A DNA stretch of 26,173 bases. Origin: a virus. The first letter of the stretch is position 1. Every line of letters starts with the position of its first letter. The notes below the pieces were generated by a model that searched no databases, had not been told where the DNA came from, and was given only the letters and a program-made list of their open reading frames with translations. Position numbers and translations under genes: made by a program. Location: positions 1 through 26,173 of the IMG/VR virus record IMGVR_UViG_3300030451_002636, one strand, 5' to 3'. Of this stretch, positions 13,902 through 19,686 are shown piece by piece.

Positions 13902-15007
13902 TATTCTTCAAATGCAAATTCAGTAATTGTAGGAACGCTAAGACCTAAAGCAGCTGCAATTTTTGGATATTTTTTTATTAAAGTTGGAGCATATTTAGCT
14001 ATACCAGCTTTTGCAAATTTAAGACCTGAAGGAAGTTTTAAAAAAGGTAATTCACCTGTTATTTCTGCAATTTCCACAGGGTTTAAATTATATGTTTGTT
14101 GTGTAAATAATGGATCAACAACAGGTATACCTTCAATGTCTTCGTACGAAGATTCTGGCATTAACATCCCTTCTGCTAAAGGTTCCACAAGGTCTTGTAA
14201 TACTCCACCACTTATGGGTTGGTATGTTGGATCATAATCATATTTTGATCCAGTTAATCTTTTAAATTCGTCACTTATATCTTTTTTCTCGCTGTAACCT
14301 AACGATTCCCACTGATCTGGTGCTGGTGGCGAAATACCCTGGCTTAATAATTGGTCATGAAACGCACCCATTTCATTTGTATAATTTATAATATCTAAAT
14401 AACCACGTGGTAAAACTCCACCTGTCATTGATTCTGTATCAAAAGGGTAAAGAATATTACTCCCTAAATTAAACAATGTGTCACCTAAAAAAGCCCCACT
14501 TCCTAAAAAAGAACGTGTTGCTTCTTTTGAAACATCAGACATGTAATCTGAAAGATTATCTGGCATACCAGTTTCTTCTCCGTAAGGATAACCATAAAAC
14601 ATTGATGTAGGAGGTTCGAGGGCCTCGAGCCCCGCATCACTCATACCAAATTTGGGATTATATTTTGCAAATTGATTTTGTCTTGCTCGGTATAAATTGT
14701 CTGCGTAATTATAAACTCTAGGATCGTAATCTAAAACACCACCAGGTCGTTCTTCTCTTAATTTTAAATCATAGTCATTTATAAAATTTATAAAGTCATC
14801 TTTTGCTACATCTAAATCACGACCAGTATTTGCATAAATCATTTGACCTGCATCAGATGCTCGAAAATCTGGACTATTAAAAAATTGTTCGCGTGCTGCC
14901 ATTTCATCACGGAAAATTCTATCAGGATAAAAACTGCTTGTTGGTTCGAAAGGAACATCCATGTAATTAAAATCCGGTGCTGGTTTGTCTCTAATCGTTA
15001 CTTCCAT
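13901..15007 (-). CDS. Phage protein of unknown function, hydrophobic-basic C-terminus
   Basis: This 368-residue protein is acidic and Tyr/Pro-rich over most of its length. It has QFFNSPDFRASDAGQMIYAN near 41-60 and repeated aromatic-proline patches. The last 60 residues change character: ELPFLKLPSGLKFAKAGIAK followed by a run of lysines and a short hydrophobic stretch. Such a tail could touch membrane. It follows the large terminase directly, sharing TAATG, and has a GGAGGAGG ribosome site. No known domain was recognised. Confidence 0.65.
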   Translation of the reverse strand: MEVTIRDKPAPDFNYMDVPFEPTSSFYPDRIFRDEMAAREQFFNSPDFRASDAGQMIYANTGRDLDVAKDDFINFINDYDLKLREERPGGVLDYDPRVYNYADNLYRARQNQFAKYNPKFGMSDAGLEALEPPTSMFYGYPYGEETGMPDNLSDYMSDVSKEATRSFLGSGAFLGDTLFNLGSNILYPFDTESMTGGVLPRGYLDIINYTNEMGAFHDQLLSQGISPPAPDQWESLGYSEKKDISDEFKRLTGSKYDYDPTYQPISGGVLQDLVEPLAEGMLMPESSYEDIEGIPVVDPLFTQQTYNLNPVEIAEITGELPFLKLPSGLKFAKAGIAKYAPTLIKKYPKIAAALGLSVPTITEFAFEE

Positions 15008-16467
15008 TAATAATAATCCCTCCTCCTGGTATTATCTGTCGGCTCGTCTTCAAAGTCATCTTCTAACGTAACATGATAACCTTGTCTATATTTCATTAAG
15101 GCTTGCGTGGTAGAATCCACGTAGTCGTCATTATCGCCAAAAGGGAATGCTGCGCATTCTTCTATGACCTCTTCGGCAAAAGTCTTTTTTGGTGCCCAAA
15201 TTGCACCAGCTTCAAAAAGCGGTGCTACACTATTAACCCTTGTATGCTTATCATTTCCTTTAGACGGTGTAAAGTTAATTACAGGTATACCCATTTTTTG
15301 TAATTCGTGTGTTAAAGGCATACCAGACGCTTTTGCTTCTATGATTACCATTTCTGGTTCCCAATACCTGTATTGTTCCATGGCCTCGCGTTTTAATTCA
15401 GGAAAATTCCAACGATCACGTTTTGCATCAAGTAGTATCAACGCTTTGCCTTTGCCGTTGTCAGGATCAAATACACCCCACGTTGTTATGGCAGAAAAAT
15501 CTGCCGTTTCTTTTTTGCTAAATGCTGTGTCGTATGATTGTATAATAAACTCTAATTGTGGTATGTCTTCTGGTTCCCATTCTTGCCACCATTCACGCTT
15601 TATAAGTGCACCTTCTTCGGATGTAGGTTGTTGCATCCATTGTGCTTGCCACTTGGTTAGAGGTATAGATGCCTTGACTGATTGTAAACCCTCCATAGAC
15701 CAAAAATTACCCCACATAGGTTTGTCGTTTATAATTGCAGGAAACTCTACTACTTCCCATTGGTCTGCCATTGAGTCTTTACCCTGGGCCTCGAGCAGTT
15801 TACCAGTAAGATCTTTTGTTGACCAACGTGTCATGACTACAACGATCGAGCCACCAGGTTGTAGACGCTGACGTGGACCAGATGTGTACCACTCGTAATG
15901 TGATTCTAAAACGGCTGGCGAGAGCGCATCCTGCTCAGAATGAGGATCGTCAATAATAAGTAAATCGGCACCACGACCAGTAATAGCCCCACCAACACCA
16001 GCAGCAAAATACTCACCCCCATGATTTGACTCCCAACGTCCAGCAGCTTTGGAGTCAGCTGCAAGTGTAACTTCTGGAAATACTTTTTCATATTCTGATG
16101 ATTCTATCATGTTTTTGGCTTTACGTCCAAAACGGATTGCTAGTTCACCTGTGTGCGTGGTTTGTATGAGCTTGGCTTTTGGATGACGGCCCATATAAAA
16201 CGCAGGAAACAGGTTAGATGCAAATTCTGACTTTGTGTGTCTTGGTGGCATATTTACAATCAAACGTTTTAGCTCACCGTTTGCAATACGATTTAGTTTT
16301 TCTGCATATATTTTGTGGTGCTTGCCTTCTACAAAATCTGGCCAAACTGTTTTTACAAATTTTAAAAAATCACCTTGTGCTTCTTCACGCTTTTTGTCCA
16401 TAGCGTTTTTAAGCAATAGTTTAAGTGTATTGGTATCTAATGATTCTAGTTTAGAAACGTTTTCCAT
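15007..16467 (-). CDS. terL: Terminase large subunit
   Basis: The DNA-packaging motor. Numbered from the ATG (486 residues), the ATPase shows a Walker A-like loop MPPRHTKSEF (about 73-82), Walker B LLIIDDPH (about 169-176) and the coupling motif MTRWS (about 212). The RNase-H-fold nuclease has YDTAFSKKETADFS (Asp near 312), VIIEAKASG (Glu near 376) and an Asp pair in DDYVDS (near 447-450). An in-frame TTG lies 27 bp upstream at 16494. I prefer the ATG at 16467 because a promoter -10 overlaps that TTG, putting the transcript start downstream of it. No clear Shine-Dalgarno precedes the ATG. First gene of the long leftward operon. Confidence 0.93.
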   Translation of the reverse strand: MENVSKLESLDTNTLKLLLKNAMDKKREEAQGDFLKFVKTVWPDFVEGKHHKIYAEKLNRIANGELKRLIVNMPPRHTKSEFASNLFPAFYMGRHPKAKLIQTTHTGELAIRFGRKAKNMIESSEYEKVFPEVTLAADSKAAGRWESNHGGEYFAAGVGGAITGRGADLLIIDDPHSEQDALSPAVLESHYEWYTSGPRQRLQPGGSIVVVMTRWSTKDLTGKLLEAQGKDSMADQWEVVEFPAIINDKPMWGNFWSMEGLQSVKASIPLTKWQAQWMQQPTSEEGALIKREWWQEWEPEDIPQLEFIIQSYDTAFSKKETADFSAITTWGVFDPDNGKGKALILLDAKRDRWNFPELKREAMEQYRYWEPEMVIIEAKASGMPLTHELQKMGIPVINFTPSKGNDKHTRVNSVAPLFEAGAIWAPKKTFAEEVIEECAAFPFGDNDDYVDSTTQALMKYRQGYHVTLEDDFEDEPTDNTRRRDYY

Positions 16468-16493
16468 TTTGTAAAAATTTTTTTGGGACTCCA

Positions 16494-16522
16494 ATTATAA
16501 CGTTTTTGTGTATGATTGTCAC
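16494..16522 (-). promoter_or_regulatory. Strong sigma70-type promoter of the morphogenesis operon
   Basis: On the minus strand GTGACA (16517-16522) and a perfect TATAAT (16494-16499) are separated by 17 bp. Transcription would start near 16487, about 20 nt before the terminase ATG. This is one of the best promoter matches in the window and the likely start of the 16-kb leftward transcript. Confidence 0.75.
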
Positions 16523-16559
16523 TCTCAGACTTGCACTTGCAACAAATACAGAGGAGGTA

Positions 16560-16650
16560 AGCGCAAAGGGGGGGTGTACCCCCGTCGGTTTGCGGTTAGT
16601 GCAGACCGGGCGGCGAGCGTAGCGAGCCGCAATAAGAGACCCGGGCACGA
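16560..16650. other. GC-rich island with short stems
   Basis: This stretch is clearly richer in G+C than the AT-rich surroundings. It holds GGGGG/CCCCC arms around TGTA (about 16567-16582), a direct repeat GCGAGC-GTA-GCGAGC bracketed by GCGGC/GCCGC, and CCCGGGC at its right edge. No credible gene was found in it, although frames stay open by composition. It sits between the terminase promoter and the first DnaA-box pair. It may be a packaging or origin structure, or an insertion from elsewhere. Confidence 0.4.
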
Positions 16651-16671
16651 GTTATCCACAGGTTATCCACA
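16640..16671 (+). repeat. 32-bp repeat copy 1 with two DnaA boxes
   Basis: TTATCCACA, the consensus DnaA box, occurs at 16652-16660 and again at 16663-16671, one helical turn apart in the same orientation. The boxes belong to a 32-bp segment that recurs at 18074-18105 with a single base difference. The gene at 16744 begins about 70 bp to the right. Confidence 0.75.
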
Positions 16672-16743
16672 GTGTTGCACAAATACAACAACAAATAATA
16701 TTTATATATGCTAGTATGTAGACAGAAAGCGAGGATATATATT

Positions 16744-17031
16744 ATGCCTAATGATTTAATAAAAACACAAAGCATTAACAATGTTAACATAACACCTATT
16801 ATGAAAGAAGTAATAGAGTATTCTAAAGACCAAGCAAGTGTTGGTGATTTAGAAGAACTAATTAGTAAAGTTCCAGCAAAAGACAGCATGGATTGGAAAC
16901 TAATTAGTGGAGTATTAATGAACTCACTTGTTGAGTGGGTTGCAGAAGATAAGGAGGAACGCATTGACCTGATTAGAAGATTACAAGGAGATGTTGGATA
17001 TATCCTTAAACGCATGGGTTTGACTATGTAA
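16744..17031 (+). CDS. 95-residue protein of unknown function
   Basis: The ATG at 16744 follows GCGAGGA, and the frame begins MPNDLIKTQSINNVNITPI. The product is helical and acidic, with VIEYSKDQASVGDLEELISK near 21-40 and a charged C-terminus EDKEERIDLIRRLQGDVG. No known domain was recognised. It is the only plus-strand gene between two large leftward blocks. It diverges from the terminase, lies beside a DnaA-box pair and has its own terminator, so it is an independent transcription unit. A role in replication or control is suggested by position only. Its promoter is not clear; a TTGCAC at 16675 lacks a good -10. Confidence 0.8.
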   Translation: MPNDLIKTQSINNVNITPIMKEVIEYSKDQASVGDLEELISKVPAKDSMDWKLISGVLMNSLVEWVAEDKEERIDLIRRLQGDVGYILKRMGLTM

Positions 17032-17058
17032 TATATATCCTTTTATAATAGTCATAAG

Positions 17059-17084
17059 AGGGCGACATCAGTCGCCCTTTTTTT
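17059..17084 (+). terminator. Rho-independent terminator
   Basis: GGGCGAC and GTCGCCC pair perfectly around the loop ATCA, with an extra A-T pair outside, and are followed by seven T residues. It lies 28 bp after the plus-strand gene's stop codon. Confidence 0.92.
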
Positions 17085-17163
17085 ATGTCCAATCGTCAGC
17101 GTCAGCAACTCTGGATGACCGGCCCGGGAACAACTTACAATATATCGTGATTAAATTTGGTTA

Positions 17164-17183
17164 GGAGTTTGCTTGGGAGTTTG
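17164..17183 (+). repeat. GGAGTTT pair 1
   Basis: Two GGAGTTTG units start 12 bp apart (17164 and 17176). This is the first of five such pairs between here and 18544. Confidence 0.6.
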
Positions 17184-17250
17184 TGAGCTTGGGGGACTAG
17201 AACGGACTTCTGGCCAACCGAGTAAGGACTAGACCCCATTACCATCTCTT

Positions 17251-17290
17251 TTGACCCAAGAGCCGAATATCTCCGTTTATCTTGGGTCAA
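17251..17290. repeat. Perfect 11-bp inverted repeat
   Basis: TTGACCCAAGA (17251-17261) and TCTTGGGTCAA (17280-17290) are exact reverse complements around an 18-bp spacer. No T-run follows, so an operator or structured RNA is more likely than a terminator. Confidence 0.6.
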
Positions 17291-17437
17291 TGTTTACTTG
17301 GCCTCTCGCCTATCGGGTCACTCCAAGTCATATGGTTAACTTTTATTTTTATCTCGGTTAATGAGTGTTAGGTTAACCTAGTTAATGTTATCTGGTGTTT
17401 ATACTCTCCAGCCCTTTCAGGTACGGAATCCGATTGA

Positions 17438-17575
17438 TTAACTAAACATACTATACATCTTTCCAAACCATGACACAATAGGTTTATTACTTTTCTTGTG
17501 GATAAGTTTCCAAGTACCTTTGTGCCACAAATATGTATATGTATAATCTTTAGTCCATTTATTCCAACGAATCAT
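17438..17575 (-). CDS. 45-residue Trp/Lys/Tyr-rich protein
   Basis: The ATG at 17575 follows AAAGGA and lies about 20 nt downstream of a strong promoter (17603-17631). The peptide begins MIRWNKWTKDYTYTYLWHKG and is basic with five tryptophans; it has no membrane segment. Promoter, short leader and ribosome site together make it a credible gene, although it resembles nothing I know. A DnaA-box match at 17497-17505 falls inside it and encodes Leu-Ile-His-Lys, so that box may be coincidental. Confidence 0.65.
   Translation of the reverse strand: MIRWNKWTKDYTYTYLWHKGTWKLIHKKSNKPIVSWFGKMYSMFS
17497..17505 (-). promoter_or_regulatory. DnaA box inside a small gene
   Basis: A perfect TTATCCACA on the minus strand. 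It lies in the coding sequence of the 45-residue protein but inside the same 1.8-kb region as five other perfect boxes. Confidence 0.45.
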
Positions 17576-17602
17576 AGTCAATCCTTTCTCTTTCTATCTC
17601 AT

Positions 17603-17631
17603 CTTATATCACGAATCCAATGTGATGACAA
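17603..17631 (-). promoter_or_regulatory. Promoter of the 45-residue gene
   Basis: TTGTCA (17626-17631) and TATAAG (17603-17608) on the minus strand each match the sigma70 consensus at five of six positions and are 17 bp apart. The predicted start leaves a leader of about 20 nt. Confidence 0.65.
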
Positions 17632-17726
17632 GTGCGAAGTAATAAAACTTACCACAGGAACTCCCGGCGCGCCCGGTGCGTGGACACCAGAGCCCATCAC
17701 CTTTTATATGGTGTAGCAAACCTTTA

Positions 17727-17744
17727 GGAGTTTGCAGGAGTTTG
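17727..17744 (+). repeat. GGAGTTT pair 2
   Basis: Two GGAGTTTG units starting 10 bp apart, just beyond the 3' end of the 29-residue membrane peptide gene. Confidence 0.6.
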
Positions 17745-17751
17745 CAGCAGC

Positions 17752-17841
17752 TCAAAAATATTGAAGCAGCAGCCACAGAGCTGCAGCACCAGCTGCCAAC
17801 TTTAAAGATCCGAGGACCAAAATTGCTAGGAAATGTAACAT
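17752..17841 (-). CDS. 29-residue hydrophobic membrane peptide
   Basis: GAAGG with 5-nt spacing precedes the ATG at 17841, and a promoter lies at 17874-17902. The peptide starts MLHFLAILVLGSLKLAAGAA and is hydrophobic nearly throughout, long enough to span a membrane once. It could be a small toxin-like or lysis-modulating membrane peptide, but that is inference from hydrophobicity. Being so short, it needs confirmation; the promoter plus ribosome site are the main support. Confidence 0.5.
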   Translation of the reverse strand: MLHFLAILVLGSLKLAAGAAALWLLLQYF

Positions 17842-17864
17842 TTTTACCTTCTACTTTCTATATC

Positions 17865-17902
17865 CTTCCTGGTCATATAGCTCCTTCAGGCCAGGAAGTC
17901 AA
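17865..17902 (-). promoter_or_regulatory. Promoter with bracketing inverted repeat
   Basis: TTGACT (17897-17902) and TATATG (17874-17879) on the minus strand are 17 bp apart. An exact 8-bp inverted repeat, CTTCCTGG (17865-17872) and CCAGGAAG (17891-17898), brackets the -10 and touches the -35, as a repressor operator would. Confidence 0.5.
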
Positions 17903-18028
17903 GAACCCGGGCATAAAAAATCGCAGAAATCCAACGAAAAATAATTTGCATCTCCCGGGAACTGGCGGGCGCCCGGTGCCTGTAGGGCTCAAATGGGCGT
18001 TTCAATTTATCTAGGTTTTTAGCCATTT

Positions 18029-18143
18029 ATGGGAGTTTCGGAGTTTGCGGTACGTCAGTCAGGGCTGCACGGGCCCGGGCGCGAGTTATCCACAGGTTAT
18101 CCACAACAAAGGTTATAGATAACCCATGGGAGTTTCGGAGTTT
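18029..18143. other. Putative origin core: 18-bp repeats flanking two DnaA boxes
   Basis: An exact 18-bp direct repeat, ATGGGAGTTTCGGAGTTT, lies at 18029-18046 and 18126-18143. Between them are a GC-rich GGGCCCGGGCGCGAG, two perfect TTATCCACA boxes (18086-18094 and 18097-18105) and the palindrome GGTTATAGATAACC (18111-18124). Segment 18074-18105 repeats 16640-16671 with one mismatch. Phased DnaA boxes flanked by iterons are typical of replication origins of phages and plasmids using host DnaA. No initiator gene was recognised in the window. Confidence 0.6.
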
Positions 18144-18351
18144 AAGCCTTCTTAAATATCCCCTCGTACATCTTGTCTAATGTACTTCTGTTATCATCGA
18201 GTATTGCCTCTTGATTCTTTCTCATTGTAGGTACAATACTATCATAATGATTTGCTATTCTATTTAACACGGTGTTGTTATCTTCTAACGCTTCGTGTAT
18301 TCTATTTAATGCATCTACTACTGCATTGTTACTATCTTCTGGTAATACCAT
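18142..18351 (-). CDS. 69-residue coiled-coil-like protein
   Basis: The frame starts MVLPEDSNNAVVDALNRIHE at 18351 after AAAGGAG and has its own strong promoter. The product is acidic and entirely helical in appearance (EALEDNNTVLNRIANHYDSI), suggesting an oligomeric coiled coil. No known family was recognised. Its stop codon overlaps the second GGAGTTT repeat of the origin-like module, so it borders that region directly. Confidence 0.75.
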   Translation of the reverse strand: MVLPEDSNNAVVDALNRIHEALEDNNTVLNRIANHYDSIVPTMRKNQEAILDDNRSTLDKMYEGIFKKA

Positions 18352-18380
18352 TTCTACTCCTTTGTTATATTTCTAATTAT

Positions 18381-18409
18381 ATTATATAATATCTGACACA
18401 CAAAAGCAA
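18381..18409 (-). promoter_or_regulatory. Promoter of the 69-residue gene
   Basis: On the minus strand TTGCTT (18404-18409) and a perfect TATAAT (18381-18386) are 17 bp apart. The predicted start gives a leader of about 23 nt containing AAAGGAG. Confidence 0.65.
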
Positions 18410-18427
18410 CCATTACAAACCATTACA

Positions 18428-18436
18428 TGTGGATAA
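18428..18436 (-). promoter_or_regulatory. Single DnaA box upstream of a promoter
   Basis: A perfect TTATCCACA on the minus strand, 19 bp upstream of the -35 of the 69-residue gene. DnaA bound here could contact polymerase, or the box may belong to the origin region. Confidence 0.55.
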
Positions 18437-18521
18437 CTTTTATCCTGTTTTTGCAGCTGCGCACCGGGCGCCGGGCGCCTGGCTGGTGTGCATCGTATTT
18501 TAGCAAAAAGGGTTTTTGGTT

Positions 18522-18932
18522 TTATGCAGGAGTTTGGGAGTTTGTCGCAAATTTGCGGAAATCTAGGTCCGTGAGCTGTCCCTCGTACAACCCGGGCACA
18601 GAAAACACGTTACTTTGGCCCAGGTCCTTGGTTTTACAGCCGTGAAACAATTTAACTTCGCCCGTGACAGGTAGCTTTACTAAGATATATGATGGTGCAC
18701 CAGCTGTGGCATGACGCATATTCCATGCAATTTGGAATGGAGATAGTACCACTTTATTACTACTATTGGCGACCTTTAACTCTACTGTAAAGAACCCTGT
18801 ATCTTTATGATAAATTAAGCAATCTGGGAAACCTGGTGTAACGTAGCTTTCTAATCTTGAAGATATGTATTCACCAGCGTCTAAGTACTTCTTGAAACTC
18901 TTCCAAAAACTTGTCTCCGTTTTTACGGTCAT
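18522..18932 (-). CDS. PD-(D/E)XK family nuclease
   Basis: The 136-residue protein fits the PD-(D/E)XK nuclease core: Glu29 in RLESY, GFPDCLIY with Asp37, VELK with Glu51 and Lys53, and Gln67 in SPFQIAW. This arrangement recalls VRR-NUC or Holliday-junction-resolvase-like nucleases, which cut branched DNA during replication or clean up DNA before packaging. The exact substrate is unknown. It overlaps the small terminase by 4 bp, so the two are co-transcribed. A GGAGTTT pair overlaps its last codons (18529-18544). Confidence 0.78.
   Translation of the reverse strand: MTVKTETSFWKSFKKYLDAGEYISSRLESYVTPGFPDCLIYHKDTGFFTVELKVANSSNKVVLSPFQIAWNMRHATAGAPSYILVKLPVTGEVKLFHGCKTKDLGQSNVFSVPGLYEGQLTDLDFRKFATNSQTPA
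18529..18544 (+). repeat. GGAGTTT pair 5
   Basis: Two GGAGTTTG units start 8 bp apart, within the final codons of the nuclease gene. Confidence 0.55.
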
Positions 18933-19489
18933 ACTTTTTCTTGTTCTTTTTTATCCTCTGATGGTACAGGCGTGATGTCTTTAAGTCCTTTGCTATCGGA
19001 TTTCTCGACTGATATGATTGTGTTGTTACCTTCTTTTTTAATTTGTCCATCTATACCTAATTCCTGTAATGCTTTTAAAACGTCTTCTCTAGACATAGAG
19101 TCAATACTACCAGTTCTGATCTCTTTTCTATCGATGTACAATCCTGCAGCTTGCCCACGCAACCGCTCAGCATTAACAGCAGCACTATAAGACTTTTCTG
19201 CCAATGACTTCTCACGTAGCCTAGCCAATTCTTGTACATGTTTATCTAATTTAACCTCATGTGTTTTTTGTAACTCTGCTCTGCGTGCCAGCACAGCTTC
19301 TACAACTTTTGGAAAGCGTTTGCCATTTAATAATTCTGATGCAGTTGTGTTTGCTCTGTCCTCTGCATATCCTGCTTGTCTTGCACATTCTGTTGGTGTT
19401 AATCTACCTTCGTTCTCTGCATATATTTTTACAAATACACGTTGTTTGTCTGTCAATCCATCATTTCTGATTGGATATCTTTTTGCCAT
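18929..19489 (-). CDS. terS: Terminase small subunit
   Basis: The 186-residue product begins MAKRYPIRNDGLTDKQRVFV. A helix-turn-helix-like segment TPTECARQAGYAEDRANTTA follows, then SELLNGKRFPKVVEAV, the pattern of small terminases of the Terminase_2 type, which select phage DNA for packaging. A coiled coil covers about 75-110. An upstream ATG at 19534 would add 15 residues, encoded partly by tandem GTGACAC repeats. I prefer 19489 because the sequence then starts like its family and the repeats become leader DNA. Both starts have weak ribosome sites. It is separated from the large subunit by the origin-like region. Confidence 0.85.
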   Translation of the reverse strand: MAKRYPIRNDGLTDKQRVFVKIYAENEGRLTPTECARQAGYAEDRANTTASELLNGKRFPKVVEAVLARRAELQKTHEVKLDKHVQELARLREKSLAEKSYSAAVNAERLRGQAAGLYIDRKEIRTGSIDSMSREDVLKALQELGIDGQIKKEGNNTIISVEKSDSKGLKDITPVPSEDKKEQEKV

Positions 19490-19491
19490 AT

Positions 19492-19686
19492 TTGTGTCAC
19501 CACTTGTGTCACCAGTTAATCTTTTATCTACCATGCTAAAACCCGCAGTATAGTTGAATTTTTACTCATTTTATTTTCTAAAAAACAAAAAAGTGCCTTG
19601 CGTCGTCTAGAGTAGTGACACATAGGTGCCACAAGATAAGTCATTGATTTATATAGCGTAATCATCATTTGTGTCACTGTGGCACC
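19492..19686. promoter_or_regulatory. Cluster of six GTGNCAC operator-like sites
   Basis: The palindromic core GTG-T/G-CAC, usually within TTGTG(T/G)CAC(C/T), occurs six times. Copies start at 19492 and 19504 (tandem, 12-bp period), about 19614 and 19625 (minus orientation), and about 19669 and 19678. The last four form two pairs arranged in opposite orientation. They lie upstream of the small terminase and downstream of the LexA-like gene, which suggests a regulator controlling packaging genes. Confidence 0.55.

Follow-up and report, generated by a model that had tools for sequence, protein, structure and literature searches.

Tandem DnaA boxes in composite modules between the terminase genes of a marine phage lineage, a possible origin-like control locus

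The virus record IMGVR_UViG_3300030451_002636 was analysed over its whole length of 26,173 bases (the window), and the element in question is the gap between its genes for the large (TerL) and small (TerS) terminase subunits. All six exact copies of the DnaA box TTATCCACA lie within this gene interval, which also holds two small open reading frames (ORFs) and a third gene. The boxes begin at 16652 (+), 16663 (+), 17497 (-), 18086 (+), 18097 (+) and 18428 (-), and every one of these predicted positions was confirmed. Their number is above chance, as had been claimed: 100 dinucleotide-preserving shuffles gave a mean of 0.39 and at most 2. Four boxes form two tandem pairs with 11 bp from box to box and a spacer of 2 bp, and these pairs belong to two 32-bp blocks which are 97% identical and, as described before, differ at a single base. 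When one mismatch was allowed the enrichment in the window was only mild (16 copies vs a mean of 9.3, with 16 reached by 4 of the 100 shuffles), so the signal sits in the perfect boxes.

Relatives were obtained by a TerL search of viral_contigs, where the best 80 of 158 confirmed loci were used for the locus counts and the gap was taken as up to 2.9 kb upstream of TerL. In these 80 loci 353 exact boxes were found in 182.8 kb of gap DNA vs 23 in 605.4 kb elsewhere, which makes the gap about 50 times denser in perfect boxes than the remaining locus DNA. Wherever a locus extends 2300 bp or more upstream of TerL (56 loci, of which 53 have distinct gaps), at least three exact boxes are present. A lack of conservation in relatives had been named as grounds for giving up the original prediction, which strongly passed this test. 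Exact boxes exceed one-mismatch boxes in the gap (353 vs 108), whereas TerL and the DNA downstream of it hold 19 exact and 194 one-mismatch copies. As a control, 300 letter-permuted 9-mers were counted in the same gaps, giving a mean of 2.2 and a maximum of 37. The commonest one-mismatch form is ATATCCACA, with 29 copies, 21 of them as the second box of a pair.

The relatives that carry the boxes have TerL identities of 76-100%. In an alignment with 17 relatives, scored in 25-bp bins, the bin of the proximal pair (16651-16675) is 0.87 identical compared to 0.68 and 0.56 for its neighbours. An open frame of at least 100 codons covers 89 of the 353 gap boxes; the TerS-TerL stretch is conserved and mostly non-coding in this marine phage lineage. 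Outward from TerL, the strand order of the boxes starts with + - + in 25 of the 56 loci and with + - - in 17. Boxes inside the gap number 9 of 10 in a 69.8-kb contig and 7 of 12 in a 61.7-kb contig, but in the 54.4-kb relative G010 only 3 of 7.

The pairs are composite modules, consisting of a CCCGGGC-type block, two same-strand boxes spaced by GG, and then either AT-rich DNA or a doublet of the word GGAGTTT. Among same-strand neighbours less than 60 bp apart in the relatives' gaps, 72 of 91 are at 11 bp, any other distance occurs at most six times, and 68 of the 72 have GG between the boxes. Flanks were counted for 77 pairs in window orientation with full and distinct flanks (54 proximal pairs, for which either TTATCCACA or ATATCCACA was admitted as second box, and 23 distal pairs). 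CCCGG[GCT]C stands directly 5' of 53 of the 54 proximal pairs. The distal pairs are flanked without exception (23 of 23) by a GC-rich block 5' and by a GGAGTTT doublet 3'. The 3' side is AT-richer than the 5' side in 54/54 proximal and 23/23 distal pairs. The relatives' gaps contain 344 GGAGTTT doublets, all on one strand and 199 with an 8-bp period, on average 5.7 per gap (56 gaps); in the window the period is 8-12 bp. Outside the gaps (605 kb) GGAGTTT occurs 11 times on the doublet strand, making 2 doublets, and 65 times on the other strand. A search of viral_contigs with one doublet form returned 105 stretches, and in each of the 116 loci with this form (earlier relatives included) a DnaA box is no more than 1.5 kb away and one of the window's proteins finds a match. 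These modules, their limitation to a single lineage and their location in the terminase gap go beyond the content of the original prediction.

The palindrome CCCGGG was seen at 16640, 17123, 17906, 17954, 18074 and 18591, i.e., six times within 2 kb, with one further copy elsewhere in the AT-rich window; relatives have 2-11 copies per 2.9 kb upstream of TerL. The features of the locus are listed in Table 1.

Table 1. Genes, DnaA boxes and other features at the terminase gap of the window.
Feature	Position	Strand	Basis
Terminase large subunit (TerL)	15007..16494	-	phrog_38, E 6e-107
Sigma-70-like promoter before TerL, GTGACA-17-TATAAT, 11/12	16494..16522	-	promoter scan
32-bp block copy 1: CCCGGGCACGAG + tandem boxes	16640..16671	+	repeat comparison
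Proximal tandem DnaA-box pair TTATCCACA-GG-TTATCCACA	16652..16671	+	exact match
Small ORF, 95 aa	16744..17031	+	conserved bins in alignment with 17 relatives
Intrinsic-terminator-like hairpin after small + strand ORF	17056..17081	+	z -6.6
GGAGTTT doublet 1	17164..17182	+	motif search
Conserved hairpin, 11-bp stem, 18-nt loop GCCGAATATCTCCGTTTA	17251..17290	+	alignment bin 0.88
Single DnaA box, opposite strand	17497..17505	-	exact match
GGAGTTT doublet 2	17727..17743	+	motif search
GGAGTTT doublet 3	18032..18046	+	motif search
32-bp block copy 2: CCCGGGCGCGAG + tandem boxes	18074..18105	+	repeat comparison
Distal tandem DnaA-box pair	18086..18105	+	exact match
GGAGTTT doublet 4, directly 3' of distal pair	18129..18143	+	motif search
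Small ORF, 69 aa	18142..18351	-	ORF call
Single DnaA box, opposite strand	18428..18436	-	exact match
GC-rich palindromic block (similar blocks 17666-17682, 17966-17982)	18459..18482	.	repeat families D6, I9-I11
Gene with phrog_2165 'DNA helicase' match	18522..18932	-	PHROG match
GGAGTTT doublet 5, overlapping 3' end of gene 18522-18932	18529..18543	+	motif search
Terminase small subunit (TerS)	18929..19534	-	phrog_51, E 5e-15

A hairpin in the gap is also conserved. Of 62 gaps from relatives, 43 contain it, and its stem shows compensatory changes (GACCC/GGGTC, GAGGC/GCCTC, GGGGC/GCCCC). Its loop GCCGAATAACTCCGTTTA is almost invariant among the relatives, the window having T for one A, and among the loci compared a hairpin with this loop was found only in this clade. 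It had no Rfam match at gathering threshold, nor did anything else within the window, and a tRNA search of the window found none. The promoter-like stretch before TerL is 0.93 and 0.84 identical in relatives (bins 16476-16525). The TerL frame has its first TTG at 16494; translation probably begins at an ATG within the frame, downstream of this promoter. The scans of the region did not exceed chance for promoters (10 sites vs 6.2 expected, standard deviation 3.0) or for terminators (2 sites vs 1.9 expected). The 95-residue ORF had no match in Pfam and PHROG searches and the 69-residue ORF none in a PHROG search; the gene at 18522-18932 perhaps encodes a VRR-NUC nuclease. When bases 1-25000 were searched for near-identical DNA, the single match was 104 bases long.

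Variant layouts occur among the relatives. In one subgroup (L146, L147, L167-L169, L174, L180-L182, L186, L191, L192, L202) the TerL-proximal box or pair is about 750-830 bp away from TerL instead of the usual distance of about 200 bp. The proximal module is retained where another gene separates it from TerL, as in G010, where a PurM-like gene (41484-42281) lies directly upstream of TerL. By reading the sequence, L163, L172 and L191 show a terminator-like hairpin after the proximal module, not a promoter and gene.

The closest public TerL proteins are those of 023Pt_psg01 (67%), HTVC027P (66%), DSL-LC04 (60%) and HTVC023P (57%). These identities and the replication, portal and capsid genes common to the relatives G010, G162 and G163 place the lineage in the HTVC023P-type pelagiphage group. 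None of these four public genomes contains an exact DnaA box anywhere. In genome_contigs 14 of 17 TerL loci were inspected (L225-L227 were left out). Locus L211, with 88% TerL identity, has 7 boxes, and the 13 loci with 57-67% identity have no exact box in the available DNA, which for L212, L213, L218, L223 and L224 includes less than 1.3 kb upstream and limits the finding for these five; the SAR11 single-cell contig L216 (66%) belongs to the box-free loci. The gaps of HTVC027P and HTVC023P lack GGAGTTT/AAACTCC and CCCGGG. The sister gaps have short words of their own, often palindromic, in HTVC027P, 023Pt_psg01 and DSL-LC04 (e.g., AAGCTTGA, GGGCCCACC, GCTGCAGC) and chiefly AT-rich words plus AAACGTTT in HTVC023P.

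HTVC027P and HTVC023P were isolated from the SAR11 culture HTCC1062. In 147 genomes from the family of one Pelagibacteraceae single-cell genome, of which the completeness is not stated, no pair of TTATCCACA 2-4 nt apart was found, and the single-cell genome itself has 9 scattered boxes vs 17 for the reversed control. Since these genomes of one SAR11 family are without the pairs, either the host of the clade is not SAR11 or the pairs are no copy of the host origin. Assigning a host through L211, the only close TerL in genome_contigs, was considered and rejected: this contig sits in a Planctomycetaceae metagenome-assembled genome, together with another contig of the clade, and because of binning it is worthless as host evidence.

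Box pairs are not confined to this lineage. A 22-mer containing the pair was found in at least 120 viral stretches, and the matches listed (loci L001-L120 and L245-L353; IMG/VR contigs may contain proviruses or host DNA) were compared for spacing, coding context and distance to genes. Among the first 120 stretches listed with any pair, a spacer of 2-4, 11-13 or 20-25 nt, equivalent to one, two or roughly three turns of the helix, separates 151 of 171 pairs, whereas multiples of three make up 117 of 147 spacers in the reversed-letter control. An open frame of at least 100 codons covers 57 of the 171 pairs vs 113 of the 147 control pairs. The helical phasing persists without the clade, in 55 DNA clusters. 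For 78 non-clade clusters, TerL was found 19 times in the 245 kb within 2 kb of the pairs and 11 times in the 490 kb beyond (p 0.0008, treating TerL reading frames as independent). Near control pairs it was found 3 times in 253 kb. The TerL profile was partly seeded with six near-pair terminases from 12 hand-picked loci, which may lean these counts towards proximity. A PHROG count free of this seeding, covering the near and far ORFs of at least 300 aa around pairs (103 ORFs by control pairs were left out), gave phrog_2 in 13 of 61 near vs 5 of 85 far (Fisher p 0.009), phrog_38 in 8 vs 4 and phrog_979 in 8 vs 6. Helically phased DnaA-box pairs thus occur in unrelated viral contigs, often by terminase genes.

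We tentatively read the TerS-TerL gap as a DnaA-binding control locus of the phage lineage, most likely an oriC-like replication start, and would put this a little below an even chance. Through the boxes, host DnaA probably triggers the DNA programme of the phage itself or sets its timing. DnaA would load on the tandem boxes beside the GC-rich block and would then melt the AT-rich DNA on the 3' side, and the GGAGTTT doublets may add a second, iteron-like input by binding a factor of the phage. From the original prediction, which offered an origin recruiting host DnaA or a titrating region, the origin is the part that the anatomy fits best, with tandem same-strand boxes, GC-rich DNA 5' and AT-rich DNA 3' of them. 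G010 has an AEP-type (archaeo-eukaryotic) primase, PolA and a UvrD-like helicase. No DnaB-type helicase was found among seven proteins from its replication region and nearby that were searched against both Pfam and PHROGs. According to excerpts of PMC12753301, host polymerase and primase genes rise during HTVC027P infection and this phage lacks an RNA polymerase of its own.

Several observations weigh against an origin. In three relatives about 11-14 kb separate the gap and the replication genes. The sister phages HTVC027P and HTVC023P possess the same kind of replication-gene set as G010, yet do without a single exact box. The number of boxes ranges from 3 to 12 among relatives. Three distinct opposite-strand pairs (L152, L153, L176) lack the 5' GC block and have GC-rich DNA on the 3' side. 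The proposed check by GC skew did not support an origin: in G010, G162, G163 and the four public genomes no switch is seen at the gap, which is a weak test for phages, and the skew tracks gene direction. DnaA-trios, i.e., at least three NAN next to the boxes with 3'-GAT-5' preferred, are also not enriched. Trio-like runs occur in a share of 0.19 of the 54 proximal flanks vs 0.20 in shuffles, in the window's own pairs the longest run is two, and the strict form is present in 5 of the 54 vs about 1% in shuffles. The word TTACTACTATTA after the pair looked promising in some relatives but was dropped as trio support, because all distinct proximal flanks together equal the shuffles.

A serious rival, to which we give about one chance in four, is that the boxes control promoters. 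The proximal pair lies between the leftward TerL operon and the rightward small ORF, and DnaA may activate or repress one or both and in this way time transcription to the host replication state. For 11 of the 54 distinct proximal pairs, a TATAAT or TATACT hexamer begins 15-19 nt past the second box, which then takes the -35 place with an ATG downstream, and the conserved promoter-like site before TerL is about 130 bp away. In addition, DnaA protects DnaA-box-like sequences near the lambda pO promoter, as described in excerpts of PMC3985674. However, a fixed distance between box and promoter is not found across the members, as the hexamer is missing from 43 of the 54 proximal and all 23 distal pairs, the window's included; the three loci with a terminator-like hairpin in its place and the chance-level promoter scan argue in the same direction. 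It is rather unlikely that the gap is a sink, in which perfect boxes on many phage copies would titrate DnaA and stop host initiation. A perfect consensus maintained at variable copy number would suit a sink, and plasmid-borne boxes do titrate DnaA in E. coli (excerpts of PMC5835720). Titration, the other half of the original prediction, nevertheless leaves the 11-bp pairing, the 5' CCCGGGC block and the fixed genome place unexplained, since it requires none of the three and all are conserved.

The location between TerS and TerL, the excess of TerL near pairs in the 78 non-clade clusters and the other short words in the sister gap would suit a site linked to packaging, where boxes and doublets take part in the packaging start or in a switch from replication to packaging. 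We regard this as improbable; G010, G162 and G163, which are possibly fragments, have no direct terminal repeat of at least 20 bases. Chance, or a functionless repeat that spreads passively, is very improbable. Short repeats of other sequence in the sister gaps would suit such a repeat, but the exact consensus is retained across 76-100% TerL identity and no permuted 9-mer exceeds 37 copies where the box has 353. A broader scenario is speculative and, in our judgement, unlikely: unrelated aquatic phages may independently have placed phased pairs by their terminases, this lineage adding the doublet code and the covarying hairpin, with DnaA reading the host replication state to set a switch between replication and packaging.

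Lytic phages that encode a primase, a helicase and a polymerase are usually assumed to initiate replication independently of DnaA. If the origin-like reading holds, a DnaA-box locus conserved across a lineage would couple the phage programme to the host replication initiator and would offer a sequence handle on phage origins among uncultured marine viruses, for which the box-free sister phages are a natural comparison.

Compared to known systems, the gap resembles DnaA/iteron origins of plasmids or prophage-plasmids of the P1 oriR type in having DnaA boxes by short direct repeats and AT-rich DNA. Those origins have iterons of about 20 bp, whereas the doublets here are made of 7-bp words with an 8-bp period, and no Rep-type initiator was found among the proteins scanned. 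Phage lambda has O and P proteins. Its pO region, as far as the excerpts of PMC3985674 go, likewise shows phage DNA with host DnaA sites by replication and transcription signals, but with two box-resembling sites instead of perfect tandem pairs in a terminase gap. With titration loci of the datA type (excerpts of PMC5835720) the gap shares a cluster of DnaA boxes, and it differs in its fixed pair geometry, composite modules and phage location. For a Pseudomonas phage an origin was predicted by Ori-Finder (excerpts of PMC11512268). HTVC027P and HTVC023P are alike in TerL (66% and 57%), in the kind of replication genes and in short repeats within the TerS-TerL gap, but unlike in being box-free. 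A full-text literature search found no description of DnaA boxes in the HTVC023P-type group, and the word 'DnaA' is not in the main text of two papers on these phages (PMC9599517, PMC11066056). The likeness to the basal unwinding system (BUS) of bacterial oriC lies in tandem boxes at most 3 bp apart with AT-rich DNA on one side (excerpts of PMC8287927 and PMC6669920). The 2-bp spacer is within this limit, and apart from the three opposite-strand pairs the 3' side is AT-rich. The phage genome, the terminase gap, the trios at background level, the 5' GC block and the GGAGTTT doublets set the locus apart from a BUS. Because trio-like runs equal those in shuffles, the anatomy does not match the trio part of a BUS. 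It does match the box part, and a tandem box set with up to 3 bp between boxes is the commonest predicted BUS layout (57%) in the excerpts of PMC8287927.

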